Origin: Sulfitobacter sp. SK011
GTDB taxonomy: Bacteria; Pseudomonadota; Alphaproteobacteria; Rhodobacterales; Rhodobacteraceae
Assembly (NCBI RefSeq): GCF_003352065.1
Contig: NZ_CP025803.1
Coordinates: 1,715,574 to 1,779,573 of the forward strand
Length of the DNA: 64,000 nt
Direction: 5' to 3'
Part shown: positions 1 to 8,615 of the stretch, in pieces
Numbering within the stretch: the first letter of the stretch is position 1
How the letters are laid out: every line of letters begins with the position of its first letter
The notes under the pieces: generated by a model
Seen by the model: the letters and a program-made list of their open reading frames with translations, nothing else
Databases searched by the model: none
What the model was told of the DNA's origin: nothing
Translations under genes and position numbers: made by a program

Positions 1-658
1 TTAAGTCGGTATCCGTCAGAGCAACCTGAATTTTCAATCGATTACCGGCGCGTCTGAAAGTGCCGTGAACCAAATACCTTGCGCTCAGAAGTGTTCCAAT
101 CTCTTGCGCACTCATTTCGGGTGCATTTACACGCGCCGTCGACTGTCGAGCGATCACTGGAAAATATCTCCATGCAGACAAGGCTGCGACCAATTCGTCT
201 GTGATGGCAGTTTCAAGTTGGCTGGACCGACCCTCACCTGAAGTATCTTCGAATTTAAGAACTGCAACTGCCGGTCTGGTGAAAGCATCGGTTTGCTCGG
301 CTGCGTTGGAAACAGCTTCATCCGGAAGGGTTGCTGATGTAACAGAGTTGCTTACTTCTACTTCGCCAACAAACCGCAATCCCCGCCGTTGGACGGTCTT
401 GATGAACTTCTGCGTGGACCCATCATCACCAATCGCCTTTCGCGCATCGCGAACACAACCGGACAATGCCGCATCCGAAACAATCCGATCTCCCCAGAGT
501 TCCGCAAAAATTTCATCCTTGCTCACCAGACGATTGTTGACACTGACAAGGAGTTTAAGAAGATCGAATACTTGGGGTTCAATGCGCACGGGTTGTCCTG
601 CACATCTGAGTTCAGCACGCTCTGCGTCCAGTTCAAATTCATCAAATGCGTAGTTCAT
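1..658 (-). CDS. Winged-helix transcriptional regulator, partial (C-terminus cut by window edge)
   Basis: Reading leftward from an ATG at 658, the frame stays open for about 219 codons to the window edge. The first ~100 residues are an OmpR/CadC-type winged-helix DNA-binding domain; the FDLLKLLV, SKDEIFAELWG and IKTVQRRGLRFVGEV segments are typical. From about residue 130 a TolB/FlgO-like segment begins (PAVAVLKFEDTS, TDELVAAL, YLVHGTFRR). Such proteins often continue into TPR repeats, which would lie outside the window. It is transcribed divergently from the methyltransferase-OsmC-globin-cyclase operon starting at 865 and is the obvious candidate regulator of it; that link is inferred from position only. 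Confidence 0.85.
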   Translation of the reverse strand, partial: MNYAFDEFELDAERAELRCAGQPVRIEPQVFDLLKLLVSVNNRLVSKDEIFAELWGDRIVSDAALSGCVRDARKAIGDDGSTQKFIKTVQRRGLRFVGEVEVSNSVTSATLPDEAVSNAAEQTDAFTRPAVAVLKFEDTSGEGRSSQLETAITDELVAALSAWRYFPVIARQSTARVNAPEMSAQEIGTLLSARYLVHGTFRRAGNRLKIQVALTDTDL

Positions 659-864
659 GTCGGCTCCCATCTGGCACGACAATACGCCCGTTTCCTAATT
701 TCGCCAAGGAAATGAAGATCGCGCTTTTCCTTTGAAATCCGTCATCATGGGCGGAAATTCAGAAAAACCCAGAGATTCACCACAAGATACTCAGGCCTCC
801 CCCAAGTTTGCGGATCCGCTCCGAGTTAGCACTTCTCCATAGCAACAACCCTTTGGAGATGACC

Positions 865-1749
865 ATGAACCAGCAAACAAATTTCCCAGCCACACCAGAA
901 ACCTCACCATTGGTGACGTTCTGGAACGAGGTGCTTGCACCGAAATTTACCATGTACCGGCACATTCTAGTGGACGGTCTGTCGCGTCACAGCGCCGCAA
1001 TCTTGCCAACCCTTCAAATCGCGCCCGGGGATCGCATCCTTGATGTTGGCTGTGGATTTGGGGACACCGTTATTGCTTTGGGCAACCGCGTTGGGTCAAC
1101 GGGTTCCGTAATGGGCGTGGATTGCTGCGAGGCCTTCATTACCCAAGCTTGGGACCACGCCGAAAAGAACTGGGCAGAGAACGTACGGTTTGCCGTAGGC
1201 GATGTTGAACGCGGCGTGGATGGCGCACCATATGATTTTGTGTTCGCCCGCTTTGGCACTATGTTCTTTGCCAATCCCGTCGCTGGCTTGCGTGCCATGC
1301 GGGTTGCGCTGAAGCCCGGTGGCAAGATGGCGCATATTGTCTGGCGTGATCGCAAATATAATCCGTGGTTGAACGCAGCCAAAGATATTGTGCAGCAGTT
1401 TTTGCCAAAACCGGGCGAAGATGCGCTGACCTGTGGCCCCGGCCCATTCTCAATGTCTGATGAACGCAATACGCGCGCCAAGATGGAAGCGGCTGGCTTT
1501 ACCGACATTCGATTCAAGCGCATCGACGCGAAAGTGATGGTGGGGCGCAACGTTCAAGAAGCGATTGCGTTTCAACTTGCCCTCGGCCCCGCCGGAGAGA
1601 CCTTCCGCGAAGCCGGCGACCTTGGCGAAGAGAAACGCGAAGAAATCGAAGCCGCATTGGCAGAGATGTTTTCCCATGCCGAAACAACAGCAGATGGCCT
1701 GTGGATGGACAGCTCTTCCTGGCTGATTACCGCACGCAATCCCGCCTGA
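865..1749 (+). CDS. Class I SAM-dependent methyltransferase
   Basis: About 294 residues with a Rossmann-type methyltransferase core. Motif I is ILDVGCGFGDT, followed by the acidic loop GSVMGVDCCE and the motif-IV-like FVFARFGTMFF, which fits a UbiE/Coq5-like small-molecule methyltransferase. The start at 865 is preferred because TGGAG lies 6 bases upstream; in-frame starts at 859 and TTG 808 also exist. It is the first gene of a same-strand run ending with the cyclase at 5733. The substrate cannot be read from the sequence. Confidence 0.85.
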   Translation: MNQQTNFPATPETSPLVTFWNEVLAPKFTMYRHILVDGLSRHSAAILPTLQIAPGDRILDVGCGFGDTVIALGNRVGSTGSVMGVDCCEAFITQAWDHAEKNWAENVRFAVGDVERGVDGAPYDFVFARFGTMFFANPVAGLRAMRVALKPGGKMAHIVWRDRKYNPWLNAAKDIVQQFLPKPGEDALTCGPGPFSMSDERNTRAKMEAAGFTDIRFKRIDAKVMVGRNVQEAIAFQLALGPAGETFREAGDLGEEKREEIEAALAEMFSHAETTADGLWMDSSSWLITARNPA

Positions 1750-1808
1750 TCCGAGCAACCCAACGCTACGACCAATAACTTTAACAAACACCCTGAAATG
1801 GACTACCA

Positions 1809-2372
1809 ATGACACAAGTACAAGAAGTAACCGCCAACAACGGCGTGAACACCGAAGCCTTGATCGGCGCGCGCGGCGCATTTACCCAAACGCCTGAGGC
1901 TGCAGCCTTCACGTTCCGCAGCACCTGCGACTGGATCGAAGGCACCTACAGTAGCAATACGATCAACGGATACTTCGGGCTCGGTGAAGAGCAGACGCGC
2001 AAGCAGATGTTCACCATCGAATCCGATCATCCTGAGGTGTTTGCGGCTGCAGATCGCGCTGCAACGCCAACAGAGATCGTGCTGAGCGCTCTGGCAAGCT
2101 GCCTGACCGGCGGCGTGGCCTCCGTCGCGCAGCATCGCGGCATCCAGCTGCATTCAGTGCGGGCCATTGTCGAAGGCGACGTTGATGTGCGGGGCATACT
2201 TGGCATGGACGGTGATATTCGCAACGGCTTCTCGGACGTGCGCGTCTCGTTCGAGGTTGATGCAGATGCCAGCGCGGAGGACATCAGTGCGTTGGTCGCA
2301 CAATCACAAAAACGCTCTGCACTGTTCGACATCCTGACGAACCCCACCAACGTCACTGTCAGCGTTGCCTGA
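1809..2372 (+). CDS. OsmC-family protein, first of two in the operon
   Basis: A 187-residue protein with the OsmC/Ohr fold. The central helix ATPTEIVLSALASCLTGG carries the first conserved cysteine (Cys98). At the position of the usual second cysteine the sequence reads KRSALFDIL, so the dithiol pair of true organic-hydroperoxide reductases is incomplete. Members of this branch are usually annotated only as OsmC-family proteins, and peroxide or reactive-sulfur handling is possible but unproven. It lies 60 bases after the methyltransferase and ahead of the flavin monooxygenase. Confidence 0.88.
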   Translation: MTQVQEVTANNGVNTEALIGARGAFTQTPEAAAFTFRSTCDWIEGTYSSNTINGYFGLGEEQTRKQMFTIESDHPEVFAAADRAATPTEIVLSALASCLTGGVASVAQHRGIQLHSVRAIVEGDVDVRGILGMDGDIRNGFSDVRVSFEVDADASAEDISALVAQSQKRSALFDILTNPTNVTVSVA

Positions 2373-2378
2373 CCTGTA

Positions 2379-2408
2379 GGGCCCCGCGTGAAAGACATTC
2401 GGGGTCCC
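2379..2408 (+). other. Intercistronic hairpin between osmC-like gene and monooxygenase
   Basis: GGGCCCCG at the left pairs with CGGGGTCCC at the right, apart from one mismatch, with a loop of about 14 bases. No T-run follows, so this looks like an mRNA-stabilising or processing hairpin rather than a terminator. Confidence 0.4.
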
Positions 2409-2443
2409 ACTTGGATTTCTTGTGATACCGTGAGGATTTTTAG

Positions 2444-3679
2444 ATGCGACACATAGATACCCTTGTCATCGGTGCCGGTCAGGCCGGCCTCGCGATGAGC
2501 CATTGCCTGAGCCAGCGCGGTGTTGCGCATGTTGTTCTCGAACGTGGCGAGGTCGCTAATTCATGGGCGACCGAACGCTGGGACAGTCTGCGCCTGCTGA
2601 CCCCGAACTGGCAAAGTCGCCTTCCGGGCTATGCCTACGAGGGCGATGATCCTGACGGATTCATGTCGATGACTGATGTGGTTTCCTATCTCAGGGGCTA
2701 CGCCGCACAGGGTACAATGCCGATTGAAAGCCGCACGCGGGTTTTGTCTGTCATTGCCGAGGGCCAAGGCTACCGCGTGTCAACGAACCGTGGCGACTGG
2801 CTGTGCCGGAATGTCGTCATGGCAAATGGTGCCTGCGCTGTTGCGTCAACCCCCAAGATGGCGGCTGCGCTGCCTGCCGATCTTGCCCAAGTTACCCTGC
2901 TGGCCTACCGCGCGCCGCGGCAACTGCGCAAAGGTGGTGTTCTGGTCGTAGGAGCATCCGCCAGTGGCGTGCAGATTGCGTCGGAACTGGCCCAAGCGGG
3001 GCATGTCGTGACTATTTCTGCGGGCCATCACATTCGCATGCCACGCAACTACCGCGGGCGCGACATCCAATGGTGGATGGACCGCAGCGGCGTGCAGGAT
3101 CAAGGCATAGGCGATGTCGACAACATTACCCGCGCCCGCAGTGTGCCATCCCTGCAACTTGTCGGGGATGCGAACATTCCGTTGATGGATTTCAACCACC
3201 TGCAGGGGCTTGGGTGCACAATTGCGGGCAGGTTGGCTGCTGTCAGGGACGGCGTCGCCCTGTTCTCTGGTGGGTTGGCCAACGCCTGCGCCCTTTCGGA
3301 CCTCAAGATGCGGCGTTTGCTGCGCAGCTTTGATGCCTTTGCGCAAGAAACAGGTGTTGCGGGTTTGTCTCCTCCTGAACACATCTGCGCAACCGCTCTG
3401 CCTCAGCGACCCGACCTGAGCCTTGATTTGACCAGTGGAGCAATTCGCACGGTTGTCTGGGCAACCGGGTTTCGGCCCGATTTTAGCTGGCTGAAGATGC
3501 CTGTTTTCGACCGCAAAGGGCAGCTTTTGCACGATGAGGGCCGCGTCGCCGACGGGCTTTATGTCCTTGGCCAGCCCTTCCTGCGCAAACGTAAATCCGC
3601 GCTGATTGACGGTGTCGGGGACGACGCGATCATCCTGTCGGACCAGATTGCCCGACGTAGTCACCAAATGGTGGCTTAA
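2444..3679 (+). CDS. FAD-dependent monooxygenase, CzcO/FMO-like
   Basis: A 411-residue flavoprotein. The N-terminal FAD-binding loop reads VIGAGQAGLAMSHCL, a second dinucleotide-binding loop lies near residue 165 (LVVGASASGVQIASELAQAG), and the ATGFRPD motif of flavin-containing monooxygenases is near residue 340. The layout matches CzcO/FMO-family NAD(P)H-dependent monooxygenases that oxidise S- or N-containing compounds. It sits between two OsmC genes and upstream of a truncated globin, which suggests a role in thiol, sulfide or redox chemistry. Its substrate is unknown. Confidence 0.87.
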   Translation: MRHIDTLVIGAGQAGLAMSHCLSQRGVAHVVLERGEVANSWATERWDSLRLLTPNWQSRLPGYAYEGDDPDGFMSMTDVVSYLRGYAAQGTMPIESRTRVLSVIAEGQGYRVSTNRGDWLCRNVVMANGACAVASTPKMAAALPADLAQVTLLAYRAPRQLRKGGVLVVGASASGVQIASELAQAGHVVTISAGHHIRMPRNYRGRDIQWWMDRSGVQDQGIGDVDNITRARSVPSLQLVGDANIPLMDFNHLQGLGCTIAGRLAAVRDGVALFSGGLANACALSDLKMRRLLRSFDAFAQETGVAGLSPPEHICATALPQRPDLSLDLTSGAIRTVVWATGFRPDFSWLKMPVFDRKGQLLHDEGRVADGLYVLGQPFLRKRKSALIDGVGDDAIILSDQIARRSHQMVA

Positions 3680-3697
3680 CCAGAAAGGACCAACAAG

Positions 3698-4261
3698 ATG
3701 AACATTCAAACCCCCTCCAAGGCGATACCTCAAGCTACGGATTCGGAGATCCGCATTGCCCAGAACAAAGTGATCGACCGCCTGAGTGCAAATCCGGCGG
3801 TGGCGGTTACCACAAACGCACTGACAGCCCATGTCGGAGACGGTCTGACCTGCGCTGTCCAGCAAGGTAAATTCAGGACAGTGATGGATCTGGGACCAGC
3901 AATGGGCGGTGCTGCACGCGGACCCGGACCCGGTTTTATCGCCAAGGCGGGTATCGCTGGCTGCATCGCTATTGGCGTCAAAATGGCGGCAGCCCGCGAA
4001 GGGATCGAAATCCAAAGCGCTGATCTGCGTCTTGAGACGGTATCGGACGACCTTGCCATCTTTGGGCTGGGTGACAACCGCGCTGCACCTCGTGAAACGC
4101 GGATCAGCCTGGATGTACGATCAGGCGCACCCGATTTGGTCATTGAGGCTTTGGTCGCGAACGTCCTTGAATGCAGCCCTTGGTTTCTCGCCCTGCGCGA
4201 TCCGCAGAACGTCACAGTCACGACCACCGTCAACAATCTGAACAGGAGCGGTTCATCATGA
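3698..4261 (+). CDS. OsmC-family protein, second copy
   Basis: A 187-residue OsmC-like protein clearly different from the copy at 1809. The conserved central helix is KAGIAGCIAIGVKMAA, with one cysteine, and a second cysteine occurs in LECSPWF, so both positions expected of an Ohr/OsmC dithiol centre are filled. It starts 18 bases after the monooxygenase with AGAAAGGA upstream, and its stop overlaps the globin start (ATGA). Having one OsmC with and one without the second cysteine suggests the two proteins have different jobs. Confidence 0.85.
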   Translation: MNIQTPSKAIPQATDSEIRIAQNKVIDRLSANPAVAVTTNALTAHVGDGLTCAVQQGKFRTVMDLGPAMGGAARGPGPGFIAKAGIAGCIAIGVKMAAAREGIEIQSADLRLETVSDDLAIFGLGDNRAAPRETRISLDVRSGAPDLVIEALVANVLECSPWFLALRDPQNVTVTTTVNNLNRSGSS

Positions 4262-4638
4262 ATGCGATTGCCCAACCATCCCGCAATTTGTCGATCTTTG
4301 ACAAATATGGCGGCATCCGGATCCTGCGTCACGTGATCATGGATTACTATGATCGCGTGCTCGACAGCGATGTGATCGGCCATTTCTTTGAAGACACGGA
4401 TATGGTCAAGCTGATCGATCACCAGACAAAGTTCTTCACGATGGTGCTCGGAGGTCCTGCGCATTTCTCTGATGCGCGTCTTGCCAGCGCGCACAAACAT
4501 ATGCGCCTGAGCCACGTGGAATTCGACGAGGCAGTTTTGCTTCTAAATGAAACGCTTGCCGATGCGCATTTTGCGCAGGATGACCAGAATACTGTCATCG
4601 CTGCCATAGAGGCGCGTCGCAGAATACTTGTCGCGTGA
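4258..4638 (+). CDS. Group I truncated haemoglobin (trHbN-like)
   Basis: 126 residues, the normal length for a truncated haemoglobin. The family pattern is visible: a Tyr-Tyr pair at residues 30-31 in VIMDYYDRVL (helix B distal tyrosine), the G-G turn in VLGGPAHF, and the likely proximal haem ligand His79 in SAHKHMRLS. Family members bind O2 or NO and often detoxify NO or act in sensing. The ATG at 4258 overlaps the preceding stop by four bases, so the two are translationally coupled. The adenylate cyclase follows 9 bases downstream. Confidence 0.9.
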   Translation: MNAIAQPSRNLSIFDKYGGIRILRHVIMDYYDRVLDSDVIGHFFEDTDMVKLIDHQTKFFTMVLGGPAHFSDARLASAHKHMRLSHVEFDEAVLLLNETLADAHFAQDDQNTVIAAIEARRRILVA

Positions 4639-4647
4639 GGGCTTGAT

Positions 4648-5733
4648 ATGTTGATCAATACAATTTGCACCGGTTTGCTGGATTCGATGGCAATGGGCGT
4701 CTGTGTAGCGGAGGCAGATACCGGGAGCGTTCTGTTTTGCAACGACCTGTTTTCGACGTGGTTTGCCGATGTGCGCGTCGAGGCAATATTGCATGAAACT
4801 CTGCCGGACATGACATCCGATGAGTTGGCGGGGATGATCAATGGGACGAGCATCGAAGTGAAGGCCAAAGTAAAACGGCGCAGTTTGATCATCGAGATGA
4901 AAGCCCGCAAAATCGCTCTCGATGGCAAGGAAGTTTTGGTTCTCGAAGGCCAGAACGTTTCTCGGCTACATGAAAGTGAGGCCATGATCGACAGCTACGC
5001 CGCGATTGTGGAACGTCGGACACGCGATCTGGAACGCGAAAAGGTGCGGGTCGAAAAGCTGTTGCTGAATATCATGCCCCGGTCAGTATATGAGGAATAC
5101 ATGTCGTTTGGATCAGTCGCGCCGCGCCTCTTTGATCCGGTCAGCGTGCTGATGCTCGACTTTGTGGGTTTTACAGAGATGTCTGTTTCTGCCGACCCCA
5201 ATGTCACCGTGGCTGAGCTGAACGATATCTTTACAGCATTTGACCGGATTGGTGAACTTTACGGCTGCGAGCGGATCAAGACGATTGGTGATTGCTATCT
5301 TGCGGTCACAGGGTTGCCACACGCGACCCCAGAGCATGCAGTAGCCGCCGCAAAATGTGCCTCGAAGATGGTCCGCTACCTTGAGCGACGCAATACAACC
5401 CACGAGCATCAGTGGCGGGCACGTATCGGTGTTGCTTCGGGAAAAGTCGTGGGGTCCGTCGTTGGTGTTCAGAAGTACATCTATGACGTCTTTGGGCCAG
5501 CAGTGAATCTCGCAGCACGCTTGCAGGCCCATTCAGCGCCGATGGAGATCACCGTCTGCCAGAACGCTTCGCAGGAGTTGCAGGACAGTTTTGATTTCAA
5601 TCGTCAAAGAACCGAAACGCTGAGGGGGTTCGGAGAAATCGAGGTGGCGTCGATCATCAGGCGGCGTCGGGAAGGAAGCACTGAAGTGAAAGGCAACCCT
5701 GGCGGTACCGTAGAAATAGCAGCGACTATTTGA
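4648..5733 (+). CDS. Class III adenylate cyclase with N-terminal PAS-like region
   Basis: 361 residues, no membrane segment. Residues 1-110 look PAS-like, residues 111-145 form a coiled-coil linker ending in LLLNIMPRSV, as in haem-NO-associated cyclases, and the catalytic domain spans about 165-335. The metal-binding Asp171 (LMLDFVGFT) and Asp215 (TIGDCY), transition-state Asn287 and Arg291 (NLAARL), and purine-selecting Lys211 and Asp280 are present. Lys plus Asp predicts ATP rather than GTP as substrate. It lies directly downstream of the truncated globin, so cAMP output may follow haem-ligand or redox state; that is inference. Confidence 0.92.
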   Translation: MLINTICTGLLDSMAMGVCVAEADTGSVLFCNDLFSTWFADVRVEAILHETLPDMTSDELAGMINGTSIEVKAKVKRRSLIIEMKARKIALDGKEVLVLEGQNVSRLHESEAMIDSYAAIVERRTRDLEREKVRVEKLLLNIMPRSVYEEYMSFGSVAPRLFDPVSVLMLDFVGFTEMSVSADPNVTVAELNDIFTAFDRIGELYGCERIKTIGDCYLAVTGLPHATPEHAVAAAKCASKMVRYLERRNTTHEHQWRARIGVASGKVVGSVVGVQKYIYDVFGPAVNLAARLQAHSAPMEITVCQNASQELQDSFDFNRQRTETLRGFGEIEVASIIRRRREGSTEVKGNPGGTVEIAATI

Positions 5734-6450: not shown

Positions 6451-7791
6451 CTACCCCCCCATCAACGCCACATCCCATTCATACGCCGTCAGCCGCTCAA
6501 ACCCGTCTTCGGTGATCAGCACCTGATCCTCCAGTTTGATCGAAAAATCACCGCCCTCGGGGGAGACAAGTGCTTCGACGCAGAGCACCATTCCCGCCTC
6601 CAGCGGGTAGTCAAAGGCACCCGGCACGGCGTTGTCAGGATAGGCGACGAGGGGCCATTCGTCACACAGGCCCACCCCATGCATCAGGCAGCCGTATTTC
6701 TGTTTCTGGAACTGTGCATCCAGCACATGGGTGTTCGCGCTAAGCTCCGGGATCATCACGCCGGGTTTAAGCATTTGCATATTCTGCTCAATATGTTCGA
6801 CGCCGTGCCTCATGGCATAGATCATATCGGGGCGCGGTTTTTCGTCGCCGATCCACCAGGTGCGGCTGATGTCGACACAGATGCCATAGCTGCCGACAAG
6901 ATCGGTATCAAAGGCGATGATCTCGTTCGCTTGCGTGATCCGGGGGCCGCATTCCTGAAACCACGGGTTGGTGCGCGGACCTGAGGTCAGCAGGCGGGTT
7001 TCGATCCATTCGCCGCCGCGTTTGATGTTTTCGGCGTGCATCACGGCCCAGATGTCATCCTCGCAGGTCACGCCGTCGCCGACGTGGGTGCGGGCAAAAT
7101 CCTCCATCTTTTTGACCGCCACCTCACAGGCGTTTGACGCACAGCGCATGGCGAGGATTTCGTCGGGGCCTTTGATCGAGCGGCTTTTTTCGGTGACTTC
7201 CTCGCCGTCCATAACCTCGAACCCCTGCGCCTCCAATGCGCGCAGGCCGTGCAGCATGATCTTGTCGACGGCGATGCGTTTGTTGCCGCCTGCATGGGCC
7301 TCGATCAGGGCGCGGACTTCGTTGCTGAACACGTCGGCTGCCACATCCACCTTGTCGCCGCGGTCGAAGTAGAAAAGATCCGCGCCAGAGCGTTGTTCGC
7401 GCACCAAGGGGTTGAATTCGCTGAGGAACATGCCGTTTTTATAGTCCCAGATCACCATGTATCCATCGGCGCAGACCAGCACGGCGCGGAACGGATTGTG
7501 GGTGTTCCAAAGCTGCATGTTGGTGCTGTCGGTGGCGTAGCGGATGTTGAGCGGGTCAAACATCAGCAGGCCGCCATAGCCGCGATCCGTGATGTTCCTG
7601 GTCAGGCGGTCAAGGCGATACTGGCGCATGCCCGCAAGATTGGGCAGGGTCAGCCCGGCGGCCTTCCATTCGGCAAAGGCCAATTGGGTTGGGCCGATTT
7701 CAACGCGGTCATTGTCGTTTGTGCTGCCATCGGGCAAATGGGTGCCATAGGTCGGGTCAATTTTGCGGGTGGCACTGTAATGGTGGTTCAT
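6451..7791 (-). CDS. dddP: DMSP lyase DddP
   Basis: 446 residues of the M24 metallopeptidase-like fold, closely resembling Roseobacter DddP, which cleaves dimethylsulfoniopropionate to DMS and acrylate in the cytoplasm. The residues known as metal ligands and catalytic residues in DddP are at the published positions: Asp295 and Asp297 (FDTDLVG), Asp307 (CVDISRTWW), His371 (MHGVGLCDEWP), Glu406 (CVEALVS) and Glu421 (KLEDQVL). The ATG at 7791 is preceded by GAGG and matches the usual MN.HYS N-terminus; the longer frame to 7872 is rejected. It is divergent from the DUF3445 gene at 7908. Confidence 0.96.
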   Translation of the reverse strand: MNHHYSATRKIDPTYGTHLPDGSTNDNDRVEIGPTQLAFAEWKAAGLTLPNLAGMRQYRLDRLTRNITDRGYGGLLMFDPLNIRYATDSTNMQLWNTHNPFRAVLVCADGYMVIWDYKNGMFLSEFNPLVREQRSGADLFYFDRGDKVDVAADVFSNEVRALIEAHAGGNKRIAVDKIMLHGLRALEAQGFEVMDGEEVTEKSRSIKGPDEILAMRCASNACEVAVKKMEDFARTHVGDGVTCEDDIWAVMHAENIKRGGEWIETRLLTSGPRTNPWFQECGPRITQANEIIAFDTDLVGSYGICVDISRTWWIGDEKPRPDMIYAMRHGVEHIEQNMQMLKPGVMIPELSANTHVLDAQFQKQKYGCLMHGVGLCDEWPLVAYPDNAVPGAFDYPLEAGMVLCVEALVSPEGGDFSIKLEDQVLITEDGFERLTAYEWDVALMGG

Positions 7792-7907
7792 GGGAGCCTC
7801 ACTGGATGATCGCTTGTCCCAGCATGGCGCGGTTTGAATTGGAGTATTTGGCAAAACCCGACGCTTTTGCATGTCGTTTTTGCGAGGCTGTTGCTAGGAG
7901 TTGAGGG

Positions 7908-8615
7908 ATGATGATTTTGCAAGATACGCTGCCGGAAGCGCAAAGAGGCGCGGCAGAGTTGCCCGGCGTTGGTCCCTGTGCGGCAGATGACTGGCTGCGG
8001 GTGGATGAGGTCTATGCTGCGCAGATGGCGTATCGGGCGGAGTTGATCGCCGATCGTCCTGAGGCGGTTTTGTGGTGTGATCCGCCTGCGGTGGAGGCAG
8101 CGTGCGAAGTGCTGTCAGAGGCGTTGTTGCTGTTGCCGGGGCTGGGGTTTGAGGTTGGCGAAGAGCAGGTGACGACCCCAGATGGACGGCGCGTCGCATT
8201 GGATTGGTCGGCACCGCTTTGGACGCTGGGGCATCTGGTGCAGGAAGATATTTGTGTCCTGCAAAAGCACGGCGAAGAACATGTGCTGACCGGTGCGGTG
8301 CTGTGTTTCCCGGCCAATTGGCGATTGGCGGACAAAGCCGGGCGGCCCTTGGTCGGTATTCACGACACGGTGGTTGAATATGACGACAACATCGCGCGGC
8401 GGGTCCAGCGGTTGTTTGATGGGGTGCGGGTGGGGCGGCCGCTGTGGCGGTTCAACAGATTATCCTATGCAGAGCCGGACCTGCATCAGCCACGTCGGAT
8501 TGCCGATGATCGGCCACGGGTTTTTCAGCGCTCTGAACGGCAATGTATTTTGCGGTTGCCCAAGAGTGACGCGGTGATTTTCACCATTCACACCTGGGTG
8601 GTGCGGGGTGCCTAG
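7908..8615 (+). CDS. DUF3445 protein, haem-dependent oxidative N-demethylase-like
   Basis: 235 residues of the DUF3445 family, whose characterised relatives are the haem-binding subunit of oxidative N-demethylases (HODM) that demethylate secondary amines such as dimethylamine. Family hallmarks are the WLRVDEVYAAQMAYR segment near residue 30, CFPANWRLADKAGRP near 150, GIHDTVVEY, and the C-terminal VFQRSERQCILRLP. The other HODM subunits are not adjacent, so either it works with proteins encoded elsewhere or it has another role. It starts 117 bases from dddP on the opposite strand and overlaps the end of the DUF2269 gene tail to tail. Confidence 0.8.
   Translation: MMILQDTLPEAQRGAAELPGVGPCAADDWLRVDEVYAAQMAYRAELIADRPEAVLWCDPPAVEAACEVLSEALLLLPGLGFEVGEEQVTTPDGRRVALDWSAPLWTLGHLVQEDICVLQKHGEEHVLTGAVLCFPANWRLADKAGRPLVGIHDTVVEYDDNIARRVQRLFDGVRVGRPLWRFNRLSYAEPDLHQPRRIADDRPRVFQRSERQCILRLPKSDAVIFTIHTWVVRGA

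Follow-up and report, generated by a model that had tools for sequence, protein, structure and literature searches.

A truncated globin gene (4258..4638, + strand) and a class III adenylate cyclase gene (4648..5733, +) lie side by side in a 64,000-nucleotide stretch of the Sulfitobacter sp. SK011 genome (contig NZ_CP025803.1, positions 1,715,574 to 1,779,573), hereafter called the window, whose own numbering is used throughout. The adjacency of these two genes among relatives exceeds chance, and they constitute a near-obligate pair. We favour, with more confidence than doubt, a reading in which the globin is a separate haem sensor that controls the cyclase, and in which the pair sits beside a second conserved module for small thiol or organosulfur compounds. 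The two modules are separable and also occur apart. A preliminary description of the region, made from the sequence alone, had proposed six tightly spaced genes for a methyltransferase, a flavin monooxygenase flanked by two OsmC proteins, a truncated globin and a soluble cyclase; open reading frames and Pfam matches support each of these identities, and all six genes run in the same direction at 865-5733 (+). The same description had viewed the six as a single system, a view that gives way to that of two modules. Like its author, we infer that O2, nitric oxide (NO) or reactive sulfur may be coupled to cyclic AMP (cAMP).

A near-obligate pair of globin and cyclase genes

When the globin was used to search 248 genomes of the same family, 27 matches were recovered in 25 genomes at E ≤ 1e-3. 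A cyclase relative lies directly downstream in all 19 strong matches (E < 1e-25; 18 genomes, among them that of the window) and is a neighbour in none of the eight weak ones. In a class-wide search of 385 genomes the cyclase is present at 14 of the 16 strongest loci, the window's own excluded, and a phylum-wide search of 398 genomes yielded a single new strong locus (L210), again with a cyclase; both counts cover matches with retrieved loci. A scan of named genomes was evaluated for the best 80 of 281 confirmed globin relatives, a set biased toward one motif because the search pattern included DHQTKF, and at least 8 of these 80 loci come from genomes also in the family set. A full-length cyclase is found at 76 of the 80, a remnant at one and none at three. 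The named loci belong mainly to Ruegeria, Leisingera, Roseibium, Stappia and other Alphaproteobacteria, with two metagenome-assembled genomes (MAGs) of Granulosicoccaceae. Records L144 (titled Oceanobacillus sp. HTM 045) and L131 (an Anaerolineae MAG) hold alphaproteobacterial-type content under Bacillota and Chloroflexota titles and are likely misnamed or mis-binned.

The reciprocal search gave the same picture. With a cyclase profile, 244 genomes of the order yielded 24 matches (E ≤ 1e-60), spread over 22 genomes, of which 4 overlap earlier sets. A globin lies immediately upstream at 23 of the 24 loci; the last, L263, is a fragment truncated by the edge of a short locus. Conservation of the pair, which the preliminary description had offered as a check on its proposal, is therefore borne out in both directions of search.

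As controls, we collected 39 group-I globins with scores of 66.7-81.8 bits from the class and phylum searches. None of the 39 has such a cyclase within approximately 1.5 kb, as far as the contig allows. The phylum matches come mainly from family f188 (e.g. G791:C6, G750:C230 and G688:C15), and many of the genomes concerned carry two tandem group-I globins about 0.5 kb apart.

The spacing of the paired genes is also tight: the globin stop and cyclase start overlap by 4 nucleotides at 62 of 112 loci, and 107 of the 112 are spaced between -11 and +33 nucleotides, where certain genomes are counted twice and start codons were chosen by rule. No natural globin-cyclase fusion is evident from lengths and Pfam columns among the 120 listed of 3148 cyclase relatives. 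Globin and cyclase distances correlate at 0.83, a figure that lacks a control and to which we give no weight. At loci L042, L047, L052 and L054 the pair stands just downstream of rplM-rpsI, with a kinase and another frame intervening in L054. The pair is conserved and probably functions as a unit.

The E helix sets the paired globins apart

The window globin (126 residues) is a group-I (N) truncated haemoglobin, as evident by its PF01152 score (56.5 bits against a cut-off of 21) and its proximal histidine at F8, and its closest solved relatives are group-1 truncated haemoglobins. The relevant pocket residues are Tyr31 (B10), Leu52 (E7), His55 (E10), Gln56 (E11) and His79 (F8), of which His79 is invariant across 51 aligned globins. 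Through relative L164, His55 aligns with the histidine at residue 46 of cyanoglobin 1s69.

To compare pockets, we assembled a homology-selected set of 37 globins, comprising 18 family loci, the window, 16 class loci, L209 and L210. Histidine at E10, glutamine at E11 and histidine at F8 are each present in 37 of 37, and tyrosine at B10 in 36, with one gap. The 39 controls carry the same B10, E11 and F8 residues without exception, and these positions are therefore common to both groups. The E10 position differs, being lysine in 31 controls, methionine in 6, arginine in 1 and serine in 1, and histidine in none. The complete E-helix motif D54-H55-Q56-T57-K58 is absent from the controls, and the paired clade is set apart by D54, H55, T57 and K58 of this helix together with D109 and V125.

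In cyanobacterial GlbN and algal THB1, likewise truncated globins of group I, the distal ligand comes from E10, according to the available part of PMC11904497, which also states that the E10 residue may ligate the haem iron and that decoordination of the GlbN distal histidine is coupled to conformational change. The available part of PMC4720485 comments on histidine or lysine at E10. From these statements we infer bis-histidine ligation for the window globin, whose E10 histidine is a predicted ligand, as in the hexacoordinate GlbN type.

The cyclase is predicted to make cAMP

Class III adenylate cyclases rely on a catalytic sextet that consists of two metal-binding aspartates, a lysine/aspartate pair that recognizes adenine, and an asparagine/arginine pair that stabilizes the transition state. 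All six residues are intact in the window cyclase (Asp171 and Asp215; Lys211 and Asp280; Asn287 and Arg291). Guanylate cyclases carry a Glu/Cys pair in place of the ATP-type Lys/Asp, and guanylate specificity was rejected on the basis of Lys211 and Asp280. The nearest solved chains by sequence are adenylate cyclases, and the protein is predicted to make cAMP.

An AlphaFold2 model of the full-length protein, built from 55 sequences (mean predicted local distance difference test score, pLDDT, 89.2; predicted template modelling score, pTM, 0.60), places a PAS domain at residues 1-103, a 38-residue helix at 105-142 and the class III domain at approximately 157-341. By E-value, the top Foldseek match is human soluble guanylate cyclase (8hbf_A; 355 columns, template modelling score 0.46), and VIA-align pairs model residues 1-341 with residues 274-662 of the same chain at a root-mean-square deviation of 12.2, with a different domain orientation. 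The modelled PAS-helix-cyclase architecture matches that of human soluble guanylate cyclase minus its H-NOX domain; no Pfam match to HNOB (H-NOX) was found in the 361-residue protein. Because most VIA-align rows were cyclase domains, the PAS domain was also modelled alone (pLDDT 88), whereupon it matched PAS domains including those of NR(II), PpsR, LOV proteins, FixL and EcDos.

These features of globin and cyclase suggest how the two proteins might work together. In the resting state the haem would be ligated by His55 as well as His79. His55 would then be displaced, either on oxidation or by NO or O2 as a diatomic ligand; our guess is NO, acting through the Tyr B10/Gln E11 pocket. Displacement of His55 would shift the E helix and alter the seating of the globin on the PAS/helix portion of the dimeric cyclase, and cAMP synthesis would thereby be switched. 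Across the whole genome there are 23 class III cyclase matches, 2 Bac_globin matches and 13 cyclic nucleotide-binding matches, and cAMP might act through some of the proteins in the last group.

A broader form of this proposal holds that the His-E10 globins, as a dedicated clade, supply the detachable haem sensor of a soluble adenylate cyclase encoded by two genes. Such a system would be the bacterial equivalent of soluble guanylate cyclase, with a truncated globin acting in trans in place of H-NOX, and in one branch a cyclase that is dead as an enzyme would relay the globin signal to a histidine kinase. We put this forward tentatively, as a reading whose prospects fall just short of even.

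One clade has degenerate cyclases beside histidine kinases

The sextet was examined in 99 unique cyclases. L191 and L209 were dropped because their sextet columns are gapped, and the window copies L056 and L182 are represented by the near-identical L038. All six residues are intact in 80 of the 99. A PAS histidine kinase lies directly downstream of the cyclase at nine unique loci (L048, L049, L051, L055, L110, L116, L121, L129 and L147), and the sextet is changed at all nine, versus 10 of the 90 others. A kinase relative also occurs on the opposite strand upstream, within 6.5 kb, at 23 loci (duplicates not removed), in many of which it is followed by an OmpR-type regulator gene.

The strict coincidence of a changed sextet with a downstream kinase is what would be expected if, in this clade, the cyclase-like protein served as a scaffold relaying the signal of the globin to the adjoining histidine kinase, with cAMP remaining the output elsewhere, including in the window. 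However, the nine loci form one clade (SH-aLRT 96 in a tree of the globin and PAS/helix sequences), which amounts to one change on the tree and one independent pair. We therefore treat the kinase association as a single event and make no statistical claim from it. A scaffold role is possible, although we would sooner doubt than accept it.

OsmC and flavin monooxygenase genes form a second module

The flavin monooxygenase-like protein (FMO; 2444..3679, +) found matches in 97 of the 248 family genomes at E ≤ 1e-60. Gene order was scored at 15 of the 16 best of these (L057-L071). A relative of OsmC1 (1809..2372, +) lies directly upstream of the FMO gene at 15 of 15 loci, and one of OsmC2 (3698..4261, +) downstream at 10; at the sixteenth locus, L088, OsmC1 is present and OsmC2 was not detected. 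The OsmC-FMO association, one of the two pairs that the preliminary description had marked for a conservation check, is thus conserved beyond chance. A methyltransferase is also found upstream at 8 of the 10 OsmC1-FMO-OsmC2 loci, and relatives of the window methyltransferase (865..1749, +) with 57-76% identity adjoin OsmC1-FMO in other genomes.

Established names do not fit the FMO. Its scores fall below the curated cut-offs for MSMEG_0569 (TIGR04046; 325.4 versus 498.35 bits) and ArsO (NF040505; 132.5 versus 425 bits), and both names were rejected on these grounds, although the two are the nearest NCBIfam models. OsmC/Ohr hydroperoxide peroxidases use two catalytic cysteines. Both window proteins belong to the OsmC-like fold family, with PF02566 scores above the cut-off of 27.5 bits (OsmC1, 60.9 bits, 1.7e-16; the divergent OsmC2, 29.6 bits, 9.7e-7). 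In OsmC1 the first cysteine is conserved and the second-position cysteine is absent in 6 aligned rows, which sets it outside the Ohr type. OsmC2 keeps the first cysteine in 3 of 3 aligned rows, and a second cysteine is near the expected place in one of the three, that of the window.

Other genes recur at these loci, among them an alpha/beta hydrolase and a second methyltransferase. A CysK-glutaredoxin fusion stands beside OsmC-FMO, globin-cyclase or both in L055 (2830-4299), L049 (13315-14790), L090, L092, L116 and L163; its domains were checked with Pfam in L055, and the other loci were assigned by similar length. A relative of pyridoxal phosphate (PLP)-dependent decarboxylases accompanies the fusion in L090 and L092 and lies beside a shorter CysK relative in L129. 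The fusion and the decarboxylase could point to cysteate/taurine-type chemistry. A MetA-like homoserine acyltransferase relative is located directly upstream of the globin in L148, L155 and L165, and after the FMO in L148 and L155. Taken together, the partner genes suggest thiol or organosulfur chemistry.

How closely the two modules are tied was evaluated from both sides. The globin-cyclase pair is near 7 of the 15 scored OsmC-FMO loci and is missing from the other 8. Of 99 unique globin-cyclase loci, 18 were dropped for want of long flanks; among the other 81, with the window not counted, 12 have an FMO and an OsmC gene within 8 kb: eight of Rhodobacterales type, three from Rhizobiaceae and one from a Granulosicoccaceae MAG. 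No such FMO lies within 8 kb at the remaining 69. Among the genomes examined, the exact six-gene order is limited to the window and the near-identical G141. Genome G137 has all six genes in a different order (the globin in L053, the rest in L053 and L098), and L041/L112, one genome present in two collections, has five of the six plus a UbiH-like monooxygenase. These conclusions on neighbouring genes rest on tblastn and hidden Markov model matches, since rough gene calls erred on strand in G+C-rich loci.

The co-occurrence check suggested by the preliminary description therefore gives a divided answer, in that each gene pair is conserved and the six-gene order is not found beyond two near-identical genomes. 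An ancient, fixed six-gene operon was rejected for that reason. A looser alternative is that the six genes form one dedicated sulfur- or NO-responsive system, in which the OsmC-FMO enzymes either supply the input of the globin-cyclase sensor or form its output. The reordered set in G137, the five genes in L041/L112, the 12 of 81 pair loci with FMO and OsmC, and the 4-nucleotide overlap of OsmC2 with the globin in the window all speak for such a system. However, it must also accommodate the pair loci without an FMO, the seven complete OsmC1-FMO-OsmC2 loci that have no globin-cyclase pair, and the restriction of the exact order, and we consider it unlikely. Since other lineages also have both modules near each other in a changed arrangement, a functional link between them is nonetheless plausible. 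In the reading of two modules that we favour, globin-cyclase would repeatedly, though not invariably, be partnered by OsmC-FMO and, in relatives, by the CysK-glutaredoxin fusion, the PLP decarboxylase, the UbiH-like monooxygenase or the MetA-like acyltransferase.

Observations that weigh against a globin sensor

A number of findings count against the proposal that the globin is a sensor subunit of the cyclase beside a second module. Three Ruegeria loci (L104, L128 and L162) keep the globin without a cyclase, and the cyclase of L158 is a remnant. The His-E10 globins of L193 and L196 have no such cyclase within their 15-16 kb stretches, which, with the preceding loci, indicates that the globin can outlive the cyclase. 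Conversely, L209, a partial globin with a control-level score, does adjoin a cyclase, and an intermediate match of the class search (G339:C41, 97.4 bits) stands outside the class count. His E10 tracks the clade and not strictly the pairing. The controls are not independent, because 21 of the 39 come from family f188. In the window itself the two genes are separated by a 9-nucleotide gap with no overlap. On the cyclase side, the sextet is changed in 19 of the 99 unique proteins, the HNOBA score is under its cut-off, and VIA-align Z scores rank isolated cyclase domains first, with soluble guanylate cyclase chains appearing from rank 28 down. For the second module, 7 of the 10 OsmC1-FMO-OsmC2 loci lack globin-cyclase, the three that have it being the window, G141 and G137. 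Finally, a search with the cyclase profile found no match in 11 other genomes of the window's genus, and therefore the pair is patchy.

The globin may have a job of its own, such as detoxification of NO or peroxide. In its fullest form, this alternative makes the globin a detoxifying NO dioxygenase or peroxidase like Mycobacterium tuberculosis HbN, co-transcribed with a cyclase that answers to its own PAS signal, the two sharing a stress but forming no complex. Tyr B10, Leu E7 and Gln E11 align with the same residues of HbN (1idr), and the five loci that have the globin and no such cyclase fit this alternative. A detoxifier would not, however, account for the reciprocal near-obligate adjacency and frequent 4-nucleotide overlap, nor for an E-helix motif that is absent from 39 control globins, none of which adjoins such a cyclase. 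We judge it improbable.

The patchy distribution, including the genus mates with no match, would also be expected if the pair and the module merely travelled together in unstable genome regions. Such chance clustering seems very improbable to us, given that the pair is kept in unrelated contexts: after rplM-rpsI, beside kinase-regulator pairs and beside a divergent winged-helix regulator.

Layout and regulation of the window locus

The regulator gene (2..682, -) opens at 682 and leaves the window; in the genome (L056) its product has 532 residues. The preliminary description had called it a divergent winged-helix/TolB-like regulator. The winged helix is upheld by a Trans_reg_C match (3.1e-14), whereas the TolB-like label is not supported, because the weakly TPR-like C-terminal half gives only sub-threshold Pfam matches to TPR and CsgG. 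A regulator of 54-62% identity is divergent beside globin-cyclase in six relatives (L100, L101, L103, L106, L039 and L040/L240). Another methyltransferase lies between regulator and pair in L100, L101, L103, L106 and L240, and a methyltransferase-like frame in L039. The local theme is therefore a regulator facing methyltransferase-globin-cyclase, and the window is that theme with a different methyltransferase plus added OsmC-FMO-OsmC genes. From this arrangement, it is plausible that the winged-helix protein regulates the operon.

The window methyltransferase is an S-adenosylmethionine-dependent enzyme of the UbiE/ArsM-like superfamily (Pfam PF13847, 5.5e-15), and the remaining assignments are supported by Pyr_redox_3 for the FMO (9.8e-27), Bac_globin (PF01152, 3.9e-15) and Guanylate_cyc (PF00211, 1.5e-39). 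Intergenic gaps measure 59 nucleotides between methyltransferase and OsmC1, 71 between OsmC1 and FMO and 18 between FMO and OsmC2, and the globin ATG at 4258 overlaps the OsmC2 stop by 4 nucleotides. The gap at 2373..2443 (+) contains an 8-bp G+C-rich hairpin (2379-2407) that might possibly be an attenuator or processing site, a weak suggestion given that its z of -1.55 over 91 nucleotides is not significant (16 of 200 shuffles were equally good). Predicted promoters (3 versus 3.2) and terminators (6 versus 6.9) within the operon are about as numerous as in shuffled sequence and are uninformative. Downstream lie an M24-type peptidase/creatinase-like gene (6451-7872, -) and a gene resembling the alpha subunit of haem-dependent oxidative N-demethylase (7908-8615, +).

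Relation to known systems and implications

Soluble guanylate cyclase, the NO receptor of animals, shares with the proposed system a PAS-coiled helix-class III cyclase arrangement and an upstream haem sensor. It differs in that here no H-NOX was found, a truncated globin with its own gene is the candidate sensor, the ATP-type Lys211/Asp280 pair is present, and the cyclase domain is nearer to adenylate cyclases by sequence. Bacterial globin-coupled sensors also join gas sensing by a globin to a signalling output, but are single polypeptides with a sensor globin, whereas the window globin is a stand-alone PF01152 protein and globin and cyclase are separate frames. Stand-alone H-NOX proteins act on a kinase or diguanylate cyclase whose gene adjoins their own. 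They resemble our proposal in that a haem protein, separate from the signalling enzyme encoded beside it, controls that enzyme in trans, but the window has a globin fold and a class III cyclase partner. HemAC-Lm, the globin-coupled soluble adenylate cyclase of Leishmania, is a single chain, whereas two genes here encode a truncated globin of group I and a PAS cyclase of bacterial type; the available part of PMC4534343 describes HemAC-Lm as a haem-containing soluble adenylate cyclase that responds to O2. The Roseobacter denitrificans trHb (glbO) is likewise a roseobacter truncated globin; the available part of PMC4319818 assigns it to group II and places it near nitrogen/ammonium genes, and the identity of the window globin with it was rejected because of the group.

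In the open-access literature we found no description of a truncated globin-cyclase pair or of this cluster, most subscription papers being outside the search. The pair is not described in the available parts of PMC4319818, PMC11904497, PMC4720485, PMC4534343, PMC1592074 and PMC12755159.

The OsmC-FMO genes represent a second, uncharacterised conserved unit that is a candidate for thiol chemistry. Group-I truncated globins have mostly been discussed as NO/O2 enzymes. If our reading is true, a whole clade of them would take on a signalling role, given its near-obligate association with a cyclase and its exclusive E-helix motif. The pair would then join fused sensor globins and H-NOX as a further means of linking haem with a cyclic nucleotide, and the kinase-associated clade may be a natural swap of output from cyclase to kinase.

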